From contig JACCVY010000237.1 of NCBI GenBank assembly GCA_013697915.1, positions 1-33,315 of the forward strand: a stretch of DNA of 33,315 nucleotides, read 5' to 3'. Shown here in pieces: positions 23,375 through 26,317 of the stretch. Made by a program: the position numbers and the translations under genes. The notes beneath the pieces are model-generated. The model worked only from the letters and a program-made list of their open reading frames with translations, was not told where the DNA came from and ran no database searches. The DNA is from Blastocatellia bacterium (GTDB taxonomy: Bacteria; Acidobacteriota; Blastocatellia; Pyrinomonadales; Pyrinomonadaceae). Numbering within the stretch: position 1 is the stretch's first letter; every line of letters begins with the position of its first letter.

Positions 23375-24238
23375 CTAACCACGCTTTGCTAAGGCAACAG
23401 TGCGGGGAATGTCCTGAAGATCATCGTAAATCTCCAGCAGTTCCCACGAGTTTTGGTCGATGAGCTGTTTGACAGCATCGTGTTGATCGAATCCCATCTC
23501 AAAAATGAGAAAGCCCCCACTCTTGAGATATTCGCGACTCTCGATCAGCAACCGCCGAATGACCGACAGACCGTCCTCGCCGGCGATAAGAGCAGCGCGC
23601 GGCTCAAAGTCGCGCACTTCTCTTTGCAGACCATCAATCGCGCCTTCAGCAACGTACGGCGGATTCGAAACAATCAAATCGAAACCTGGACCAGACGCTG
23701 GTCCAAGTCCGGCAAAGCAATCCGAAGTGACCAACGAAAGACGATCACCAATGCCGTGACGATTTGCGTTCCGCTCCGCGACTGCCAACGCTGCTGTTGA
23801 AATGTCCAGCGCCACTGCGCGTGCGCTCGGAAGTTTGTGAAGGAGTGTAACGACGATGCAACCGGAACCTGTGCCGACGTCGCAAATGAAGGGTTCTTCG
23901 TTTGCTGAAACGAGCGCCAGCGCCACTTCAATCAGCAATTCCGTTTCGGGCCGCGGGATTAAGACATCACTGTTAACTTCAAACTCGAGTCCAAAAAATT
24001 CCTGGCGCCCGGTGATGTATTGCAATGGCTTGCCTTGGGCGCGCGCGTCGAGCGACTCGCTAAACTTCTCAATTTGTTCATTGGTCAGTTGATCTTCCGC
24101 ATGCGTCAGAATGTAACCACGATCGCGATCCAGGACGTACATTAACAACGACCCAGCCTCCCGCCGCTCGTCAGGCACGCCGGCCTTCCGCAGTTTGTTA
24201 GCGCCTTGTAGTATCGCCTGTGCTATCGATGTGGACAT
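23375..24238 (-). CDS. prmC: Peptide chain release factor N5-glutamine methyltransferase
   Basis: PrmC methylates the Gln of the GGQ motif in release factors RF1 and RF2. The 287-aa product has the N-terminal helical domain, ITGRQEFFGLEFEV, the VLIPRPETELL motif, the SAM-binding CDVGTGSGCI (about 119-128) and the catalytic NPPY (192-195). Length is normal. It is divergent from the DUF5658 gene and lies 110 bp upstream of the DUF4097-like gene on the same strand. In many genomes prmC follows prfA; prfA is not next to it here. Confidence 0.96.
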   Translation of the reverse strand: MSTSIAQAILQGANKLRKAGVPDERREAGSLLMYVLDRDRGYILTHAEDQLTNEQIEKFSESLDARAQGKPLQYITGRQEFFGLEFEVNSDVLIPRPETELLIEVALALVSANEEPFICDVGTGSGCIVVTLLHKLPSARAVALDISTAALAVAERNANRHGIGDRLSLVTSDCFAGLGPASGPGFDLIVSNPPYVAEGAIDGLQREVRDFEPRAALIAGEDGLSVIRRLLIESREYLKSGGFLIFEMGFDQHDAVKQLIDQNSWELLEIYDDLQDIPRTVALAKRG

Positions 24239-24256: not shown

Positions 24257-24287
24257 TTGTGTTCTGCGCCCGTCGGCCTTATATAAT
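24257..24287 (+). promoter_or_regulatory. Candidate promoter of the structured leader
   Basis: A perfect -10 TATAAT at 24282-24287 lies 19 bp after TTGTGT (24257-24262). Spacing is slightly long, but this is the best -10 seen in the window. The predicted transcript starts near 24294, giving a leader of about 205 nt. Confidence 0.55.
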
Positions 24288-24316
24288 AAGCGTCAAGTAA
24301 TTAAGGCATTTTTTTC

Positions 24317-24446
24317 GCTCTGTCGCACGTGTTCTCTTCTATTTTGGGGAACAGAAACCTTATTGGAACTTTCTTGTTAGCACCACGGTACGAGTCTCGT
24401 TCCTCCCGTATGCGACAGAGCCTCCCAACCATTTCGGTTGTGGAGG
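24317..24446 (+). ncRNA. Structured 5' leader RNA, family not recognised
   Basis: A closing stem of 11 perfect pairs joins GCTCTGTCGCA (24317-24327) with TGCGACAGAGC (24411-24421) across 83 nt. Inside lie TGTTCTCT/GGGGAACA (24330-24337 with 24346-24353) and GG-ACGA/TCGT-CC around 24387-24403. Immediately after comes a second strong hairpin, CCTCCCAACC (24421-24430) with GGTTGTGGAGG (24436-24446), 10 pairs and one bulge. This multi-branched fold just downstream of a good promoter and upstream of a coding gene looks like a cis-regulatory RNA or a stand-alone small RNA. It matches no riboswitch consensus I know. Confidence 0.55.
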
Positions 24447-24465
24447 TTCTGGCGTAAAAGGAGCA

Positions 24466-24489
24466 GTGAGTTTAACAACGTTTCTCTGA
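24466..24489 (+). CDS. Tiny upstream ORF (7 codons) in the leader
   Basis: GTG at 24466, preceded by AAGGAG with 2-3 nt spacing (close), opens MSLTTFL and stops with TGA at 24487-24489. The stop overlaps the GAGGAG ribosome-binding site of the next gene (24488-24493). If translated, it could act as a leader peptide or couple translation to DUF5658. The close spacing lowers confidence. Confidence 0.3.
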   Translation: MSLTTFL

Positions 24490-24498
24490 GGAGCAAGG

Positions 24499-24867
24499 GT
24501 GGGCGCACTTTCAAAAGCGATTTTGTTATTCTCCCTTAACTGGCTCGACGCTCAGTTGACCATTCTTTGGGTGCGCCTGAACGTGGCCACCGAAGGAAAT
24601 GGGTTCATGGCCCACCTGCTTAACCGCAGCGAAGGTTCGTTTCTCTCAGTCAAACTTGCCATCGGCGCCCTGGCCGCCTACACCCTTTACCGTTGCGCAG
24701 AGATTCCCATCGCCCGCCGTGGGATGAAACTGGTGCTGGGAATTTATTTGCTCCTGATGTTTGTGCATGTCGCCACCGCTTTCTCGGCCCTCGGTTGGCA
24801 TGCCCCGGTTACCGTAATTACATATTTCGTCAGCCTGCCAAAAGCTTTCCTGGCCATGTTTGTGTAG
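24499..24867 (+). CDS. DUF5658-family membrane protein
   Basis: The 122-aa product has about four hydrophobic helices and the family-like opening LNWLDAQLTILWVRLNVATEGNGFMAHLL, followed by SVKLAIGALAAYTLYR. It starts with GTG at 24499, with GAGGAG at 24488-24493 spaced 5 nt. Function of the family is unknown. Its long structured leader suggests post-transcriptional control. It is followed by about 295 bp without a gene before htrA. Confidence 0.8.
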   Translation: MGALSKAILLFSLNWLDAQLTILWVRLNVATEGNGFMAHLLNRSEGSFLSVKLAIGALAAYTLYRCAEIPIARRGMKLVLGIYLLLMFVHVATAFSALGWHAPVTVITYFVSLPKAFLAMFV

Positions 24868-25096
24868 GTTCTCCTTTCGAACGGCGCGACTTTCCTGTTT
24901 GTTTCCCTGCTCGCAAAATCTTCCAATCTAAAAGGAACGCAAACTCTTTCGAAACGTGTGAAGAATGCTTTACTTCGGAAAGCAGGTATTCGTGTTTCTG
25001 CCGCTTGCATACGTTCTGAGATAGGCCTAGATTTGTGGCTGCCGGCAGAGTGCAACCAGCGGGCAACGGTAAACAGCGCAACCTGCCAGCATCGCT

Positions 25097-25125
25097 TTGG
25101 CATCGAAAGAAACACGAGTCATAAC
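25097..25125 (+). promoter_or_regulatory. Candidate promoter of the HtrA-type protease
   Basis: TTGGCA (25097-25102) and CATAAC (25120-25125) are separated by 17 bp, 5 of 6 and 4 of 6 matches to the housekeeping consensus. The predicted start near 25132 leaves a 30-nt leader containing GAGAGAG before ATG 25163. Confidence 0.45.
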
Positions 25126-25162
25126 TAGCGGAACAACCTAATAATTGAGAGAGAATTAAGCC

Positions 25163-26317
25163 ATGTATAGACTTTCAGCACGTCAAATCCTGGTGATAGC
25201 TTTGATTTCAGGACTGTTTGCCGCCGGCGCAATTGCGGTCGTGGATCGGCTATCGAATCGTTTACAGCCGGCTCGGGCGGCATATTCCGAAACGTCGCCA
25301 AGCGGCATTACCGATCCGGCAACCGCCAATGACGAACAAAACAACATCGAAATTTACCGCACCTTGTCGCCGGGCGTTGTTAACGTTCATTCCACTTCCT
25401 ACGCCCGCGATTTCTTTGGCTTCGTTGAGCCGCAGGAAGGCTCCGGGTCGGGTTCGATCATCGATCAGGACGGGAACATTCTTACCAACTACCATGTGAT
25501 TGAAGGCGCGCAGAAACTTGCTGTCAGTTTTGGCGGCCAGAAAAACTACGCTGCGAAAGTAGTCGGCGGCGATCCGGACACAGATCTGGCTGTTATCAAA
25601 TTGATCGAGATGCCAAAAGAGCCGCTAACCATTGTGCCGCTCGGCGATTCGGACAAGCTCGAAGTGGGCCAGAAGGTTTTGGCAATCGGCAATCCTTTTG
25701 GTCTCGACCGAACGTTGACGACCGGCGTAATTAGCGGGTTGCAGCGTCCGATCCGGGCCCGCAATGGACGGCCAATTGAAGGCGCGATTCAGACGGACGC
25801 TTCCATTAATCCGGGAAACTCAGGTGGTCCATTGCTCGATTCCCATGGTCGCATGATTGGCATCAACTCGCAGATTCTTTCGCCTTCAGGCGCCTCGGCG
25901 GGAGTGGGTTTCGCCGTTCCGGTGAACATTGCAAAACGCATCGTGCCGGAGCTCGTGCGCTCCGGTGAAATTCGCCGGCCGAAACTTGGCATCACCACCC
26001 GGGACGTTGAAGCTCTAAAGAGCCAGGTTGAATTGCCCGTATCTGATGGTGTGTTGATTTGGCAGATTGCGCCGGGGGGCCCGGCCGCAAACGCCGGCTT
26101 GCGTGGACTAACGCAAACAGAGAATGGCGACGTTGAAATCGGCGACGTCATTGTCGGCATTGATAACGAGAAGGTGGAAAACACCGACGGCCTTTATCGC
26201 ATACTCAATAAGCACGCAGTGGGTCAACAGGTTCAAGTACAAATTGTGCGCAATGGCCGTCGCACTTCAGTGCCGGTGCGGCTGACAGAAACGCCGGATG
26301 CCAGGCGCCGGCAGTAA
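25163..26317 (+). CDS. HtrA/DegP-type S1C serine protease with PDZ domain
   Basis: HtrA proteases degrade or refold damaged envelope proteins. The 384-aa product has an N-terminal membrane anchor (about residues 8-27), a trypsin-like domain with the triad H111 (TNYHVIEG), D141 (DTDLAVIKL) and S220 (GNSGGP), and one PDZ domain (about 280-375, APGGPAANAGL and IGDVIVGIDNEKV). One PDZ and the N-terminal anchor fit the DegS/HhoA-like architecture. Length is normal. A heptamer hairpin starts right after the stop. Confidence 0.96.
   Translation: MYRLSARQILVIALISGLFAAGAIAVVDRLSNRLQPARAAYSETSPSGITDPATANDEQNNIEIYRTLSPGVVNVHSTSYARDFFGFVEPQEGSGSGSIIDQDGNILTNYHVIEGAQKLAVSFGGQKNYAAKVVGGDPDTDLAVIKLIEMPKEPLTIVPLGDSDKLEVGQKVLAIGNPFGLDRTLTTGVISGLQRPIRARNGRPIEGAIQTDASINPGNSGGPLLDSHGRMIGINSQILSPSGASAGVGFAVPVNIAKRIVPELVRSGEIRRPKLGITTRDVEALKSQVELPVSDGVLIWQIAPGGPAANAGLRGLTQTENGDVEIGDVIVGIDNEKVENTDGLYRILNKHAVGQQVQVQIVRNGRRTSVPVRLTETPDARRRQ

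Follow-up and report, generated by a model that had tools for sequence, protein, structure and literature searches.

Translational riboswitches and thermosensors use anti-Shine-Dalgarno expression platforms. The DUF1646 motif is reported as an orphan cis-regulatory motif, of the kind that came from comparative genomics, which was later identified as the Na+ riboswitch (PMC9337991). For the Acidobacteria, a second source lists Acido-1 (RF01686) and Acido-Lenti-1 (RF01687) as structured RNA candidates, and grades both as probably not cis-regulatory (PMC2864571).

The RNA considered here is in a contig of 33,315 nucleotides from a Blastocatellia bacterium of the family Pyrinomonadaceae (JACCVY010000237.1; this whole stretch is called the window), where it precedes a gene of the DUF5658 family. 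It resembles the DUF1646 motif in being a covarying structured leader immediately ahead of a gene whose function is unknown, with no ligand known at discovery. It differs in being limited to a single gene family within a single bacterial family. As in anti-Shine-Dalgarno platforms, a GUUCCUC sequence in the window can pair either with AGGAGC, acting as a decoy, or with GAGGAGC, the Shine-Dalgarno region, whereas the off-pairing does not co-evolve and the switching is hypothetical here.

The window and 20 loci from relatives were scanned with Rfam 15 (4227 models), and gave no match at the gathering score. Acido-1 and Acido-Lenti-1 carry Rfam numbers, and therefore both should have been included in these scans; the DUF5658 leaders are unlike them in that they match neither at the gathering score. 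At E ≤ 5 the sole match was sub-threshold (16.7 of 50 bits) and on the opposite strand. A known Rfam family is ruled out by the gathering-score scans, and the suggestion in the original prediction that the element is unrecognised was borne out by this covariance-model check. A full-text search, thin on subscription journals, found no mention of DUF5658, and what joins Pyrinomonadaceae with riboswitches in a similarly thin search concerns, from its title, osmoprotectants. The DUF5658 leader is a real structured mRNA leader, and apparently an undescribed one.

The DUF5658 locus and its promoter module

The DUF5658 gene (24499-24867, GTG start) codes for 122 amino acids, and its product is a small, helical, probably membrane protein. 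Its match to PF18902 has an E-value of 3.7e-12 in a protein-family search, and its start is kept among relatives. The predicted structure has five helices (mean pLDDT 79.6, pTM 0.65), and a fold search of the PDB found no solved structure resembling the model (best E-value 2.8). The gene and the features described below are on the plus strand. The divergent gene prmC (23375-24238, minus strand) is separated from the DUF5658 start by a gap of 260 bp, and degP/HtrA is located 3' of DUF5658. This last arrangement is common: degP/HtrA is downstream in 40 of the 44 loci examined, usually by 90-460 nt (24499-26317 in the window), while the remaining four have no degP within the stretch examined.

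Comparison of sequences indicates that the conserved unit is 24348-24498, with a different fold from that first drawn. A promoter module is followed by hairpin P1 and by P2-P3, a long hairpin with interruptions; after these come a GUUWAAC motif, the Shine-Dalgarno sequence and the start of DUF5658. The promoter module consists of a -35-like GGAAC (24348-24352), an ATT in the spacer (24362-24364) and a -10-like TTTCTT (24370-24375), and the transcript is predicted to start at about 24382.

The general pattern of the module is (T/G)GAA-N9/10-ATT-N5-T-W-T, which takes the form GGAA-N10-ATT-N5-TTT in the window. The full pattern was found before 42 of 44 DUF5658 genes, mostly 140-174 nt upstream, compared with 3 of 880 shuffles; it was missed in a truncated contig (L055) and in what by eye is a spacing variant (L091). 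It was absent before degP (0/40), prmC (0/30) and DUF4097 (0/11). In a set of 100 leaders, GGAA or GAAA at the correct spacing before ATT occurs in 84, against 19 of 500 shuffled sequences. In one group of genera the module reads as TTGAAA-17-TATATT, which we take from the usual consensus to be a good sigma-70 promoter, and in the group containing the window GGAAC and TTTCTT are presumably nearer to the ECF type. The ATT is at a fixed distance from both boxes across most of Pyrinomonadaceae, although its occurrence of 100% is by construction, since the pattern searched for contained ATT. To our knowledge, ATT in the spacer is not a requirement of ordinary sigma-70 or ECF promoters, and it may be a regulator site.

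A different promoter was originally proposed, with TATAAT as an excellent -10. The letters are indeed present at 24282-24287, and recur by eye in several members of the genus, but a -35 partner was not found in a consensus scan and the site is outside the family-wide unit. It is a possible second, distal promoter.

Helices of the leader

The stretch 24294-24498 is more stable than all of 200 dinucleotide shuffles (z -3.0), and 24382-24498 alone has a z of -3.5, with one of 200 shuffles equally good. P1 (24387-24403) is the hairpin GGUACGA-GUC-UCGUUCC, with a single U-U mismatch. Its 3' arm and the 5' arm of P2 overlap, so that the two helices have nucleotides 24399-24403 in common. A permutation test of P1 on 23 group-A leaders gave 13 of 20,000. 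The stability of the P1 region is no better than that of shuffled sequence, the probability of P1 in the window is 0.12-0.15, and by eye P1 is apparently missing in group B.

The 5' arm of P2 is the pyrimidine-rich GUUCCUC (24399-24405), which is also complementary to the Shine-Dalgarno sequence, and its 3' arm is AGGAGC (24459-24464), placed by the permutation test, covariation and the fold. P3 (24409-24456) is predicted by the fold and by covariation in relatives; it consists of a lower stem (24409-24413 with 24452-24456) and a main stem (24416-24425 with 24442-24451, and 24426-24430 with 24436-24440). Among 52 cluster representatives, P2 arms pair with their own partner at -10.82 kcal/mol and with swapped partners at -8.52 kcal/mol (sd 0.33), a difference attained in none of 20,000 permutations. 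When the groups were taken separately with full arms, the result was 5 of 20,000 for group A (24 representatives) and 0 of 20,000 for group B (28), and arms of 26 or 32 nt gave 0 and 0 of 20,000 in groups A and B. Shuffled arms had little effect, and composition therefore does not explain the P2 signal. The energy model gives P2 a probability of about 0.17 in the window.

Covariation was counted in an alignment, A6, of 34 leaders. Of the 100 leaders, 68 passed a filter requiring a strong apical hairpin and a GUUWAACAA-like motif, and 32 failed. A low motif score or an unusual structure led to the removal of 13 of the 52 cluster representatives, leaving 39, and five more were taken out to give A6; the covariation count therefore rests on the better-behaved leaders. 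Not among the 100 are a truncated leader (L055), L070 and L199, the duplicates L148, L193 and L195-L198, and also L103 and L105. An earlier-numbered alignment, A5, holds opposite-strand rows and was excluded from the counts.

In A6 the covariation score is 0.383 vs 0.247 in shuffles, and is attained by none of 500 shuffles. Paired cells amount to 80.9% compared with 72.4% in shuffles, with the register maximum at a slide of 0, and mean column identity is 52%. In P3, 91.2% of cells are paired and 7 of the 10 pairs have two-sided changes; for P2 the figures are 66.2% and 7 of 7. In this alignment P2 and P3 carry the compensatory changes that would be expected of a conserved structured RNA leader. 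A test of whether the 5' end of the transcript pairs with the GUUWAAC motif showed no signal (6148 and 7666 of 10,000), and pairing of that end with the 3' segment of P2 gave nothing in group A (4561 of 10,000) and a weak signal in group B (526 of 10,000).

The general claim of the original prediction, a structured leader RNA before DUF5658, is thus backed by family-wide conservation and covariation, with different helices and a different promoter from those it named. Its central feature was an 11-bp stem in which GCTCTGTCGCA (24317-24327) pairs with 24411-24421. The two segments are exact reverse complements, but the stem has a pair probability of at most 0.10 and is missing from the minimum-energy fold, because a local hairpin occupies its 3' arm. 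The conserved promoter module is downstream of its 5' arm. An upstream helix reaches 11 bp in 2 of 13 genus leaders, namely those of the window and its nearest relative, and in the other 11 it is of 5-9 bp and mostly at the level of shuffles. When homologous leaders were checked for compensatory changes, this stem was itself not conserved and the covariation was in P2 and P3. On fold, pair probability and recurrence it is rejected as the core of the element.

Two smaller features were also named. The 10-bp hairpin at 24421-24446 is a real, strong hairpin, of which this span is the upper part, the actual extent being 24416-24451. The 7-codon ORF is present, as GTG...TGA at 24466-24489 by the ribosome-binding site (AGGAG, 24489-24493), but it is found in 2 of 37 leaders and stands outside the element. 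This rules out a conserved leader peptide, and a leader-peptide attenuator is rejected for the same reason and by a search that found no terminator-like site.

The sequence GTTTAACAACGTT (24470-24482) is the window's copy of the GUUWAAC motif, whose family form is GUUWAACNNNGUU or GUUWAACAANNUUUUGC. In this motif, and on the 3' side of the lower stem, the sequence is kept as well as the pairing. The motif is followed by the Shine-Dalgarno region GAGGAGC of DUF5658 (24488-24494), located from the letters and the fold. A sub-clade of one genus (L160, L161, L163, L164, L170 and L171) has a rearranged leader, seemingly with an extra small hairpin between GTTTAAC (or GTTTGAC) and a T-rich stretch.

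Distribution in Pyrinomonadaceae

A DNA search of 59 genomes, comprising the window's own and those of relatives, gave a match in 12, all of them within the genus and focused on 24390-24483. A covariance model, R1, was made from 12 genus sequences; at E ≤ 1 it had matches in 14 of the 16 genomes of the genus, one of which (G002) is probably false. Three genus genomes (G001, G002 and G010) have neither a credible leader match nor a detectable DUF5658, and all 13 genomes of the genus that have DUF5658 therefore have the leader. At E ≤ 0.1, R1 had matches in 41 of the 119 genomes of the family, and in a search of 162 genomes of the class all 38 genomes matched at E ≤ 0.01 belong to Pyrinomonadaceae. 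The good matches immediately precede DUF5658, even at loci where no neighbouring prmC was found. The element is present as a single copy in the genome, the second R1 match being the same place on the opposite strand, which rules out a repeated regulon. The sequence GTTTAACAACGTTT has one exact and one single-mismatch place in the genome, and the latter has no leader recognisable by eye.

The second model, R2, was built from A6, and its 34 model sequences match by construction. At E ≤ 0.1 it had matches in 69 of the 119 genomes of the family, and in 67 of these the match is on the same strand and just upstream of DUF5658 (coordinates compared by eye). The two exceptions are G020, where the match is before a disrupted DUF5658 gene, and G066, a chance match. 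For comparison, PF18902 itself was found in 100 of the 119 genomes. Among 396 genomes of the phylum, R2 matched 14 family members and four others. These four matches have E-values of 0.004-0.08 and are below the chance expectation for the threshold; two were inspected, and neither is near DUF5658. Family matches rejected as false are L100 (by a tRNA-like sequence, by eye) and those in G086:C39, in G066 and in G002, the last being a genome with no DUF5658 hit. DUF5658 leaders from other families of the phylum showed no resemblance by eye in the 13 compared (of 16, L121, L125 and L131 had a wrong offset and were left out), and no similar DNA was found on plasmids. Across the genomes searched, the element is confined to a single gene family and to a single family of bacteria, Pyrinomonadaceae (Acidobacteriota).

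Several individual loci are worth recording. Pyrinomonas methylaliphatogenes K22, whose record is a non-metagenome assembly, has a version of the leader (L090). L214 (G020:C50:120900-122400) has a clear leader before a DUF5658 gene missed by the protein search; tblastn found only a 36-residue piece, and the gene there is therefore disrupted or mis-assembled. In L070 and L199 the 3' half of the leader and the start codon are missing, and the 5' arm of P3 is joined straight to DUF5658 coding sequence, perhaps through an assembly collapse. L055 is on a contig titled Deltaproteobacteria, where a DUF5658 about 70% identical to that of the window has a GTT-AAC motif ahead of it; this contig is probably assigned to the wrong taxon.

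Proposed function of the leader

It is proposed that 24348-24498 provides the DUF5658 mRNA with its promoter and 5' leader, and that the leader acts in cis as a regulatory RNA, which would switch by alternative pairing of its pyrimidine arm. We put the probability of this reading at roughly 0.45: the structure and its association with DUF5658 are well supported, and the switch serves as a working hypothesis. GUUCCUC could pair with P1, with the AGGAGC of P2 or with the Shine-Dalgarno GAGGAGC. When P2-P3 is formed, the ribosome-binding site would be free and DUF5658 would be translated, and when the arm is on the Shine-Dalgarno region translation would be off. P2 would then hold a decoy of the Shine-Dalgarno sequence, as an anti-Shine-Dalgarno switch. 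A binder of the internal loop or of the GUUWAAC motif may tip the balance, and a protein is likelier in this role than a small ligand.

Such a switch is suggested by the competing folds in the window: the minimum-energy fold of 24382-24498 has GUUCCUC on GAGGAGC, and a slightly longer stretch favours P2. The pairing of the arm with the Shine-Dalgarno region has no species specificity (4448 and 9220 of 10,000), and it is better than 95% of shuffles in none of 23 leaders, compared with 11 of 23 for P2. The ribosome-binding site is more open in native leaders than in shuffled ones (0.52 vs 0.39, mean of 37 leaders), a result which also fits a plain structural leader. In such a leader, a stable P2-P3 would shield the mRNA at its 5' end while leaving the ribosome-binding site free for steady expression, with no switching. 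The lack of co-evolution in the off-pairing is in keeping with this, but the GUUWAAC motif and the lower-stem 3' strand are more conserved in sequence than a simple protective hairpin would require, and we regard such a leader as a genuine but lesser possibility. A bolder form of the switching proposal, which we consider doubtful, is a new cis-regulatory RNA class confined to Pyrinomonadaceae, in which the pyrimidine arm would pick among its three partners upon a signal linked to DUF5658.

A small-molecule riboswitch controlling translation of DUF5658 would account for the conserved unpaired positions, the overlap of P1 and P2 and the occurrence of an orphan leader at a single gene. It is unlikely, given that the carriers are one gene family in one bacterial family and that the conservation is modest for an aptamer. 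It is also improbable, to a greater degree, that the conservation is partly at the level of DNA and reflects transcription-factor sites controlling the promoter (the palindromic P1, GTTWAAC and the spacer ATT). Both ACGAGTCTCGT and GTTWAAC are palindromic and the ATT is at fixed spacing, but this gives no account of the way P2 and P3 change in sequence while pairing is kept. The original prediction left open whether the element was riboswitch-like or a small RNA, and the first of these survives at the low probability just given. The second, a free small RNA from the prmC-DUF5658 intergenic region, would explain a compact structure with its own promoter module, but the lack of a terminator-like site and the fixed place by the DUF5658 start in nearly all matches make it very improbable. 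We give least credence to a leader built on the 11-bp stem and the 7-codon ORF and transcribed from TATAAT at 24282, in which the letters are exact but the stem and the ORF fail in pair probability and recurrence, as described above.

A poorly studied family of soil bacteria thus gains a well-supported RNA element without an Rfam entry, together with a conserved promoter architecture. The leader is a first functional handle on DUF5658. It is an orphan leader tied to one gene of unknown function, and this opens the signal of that gene to testing.
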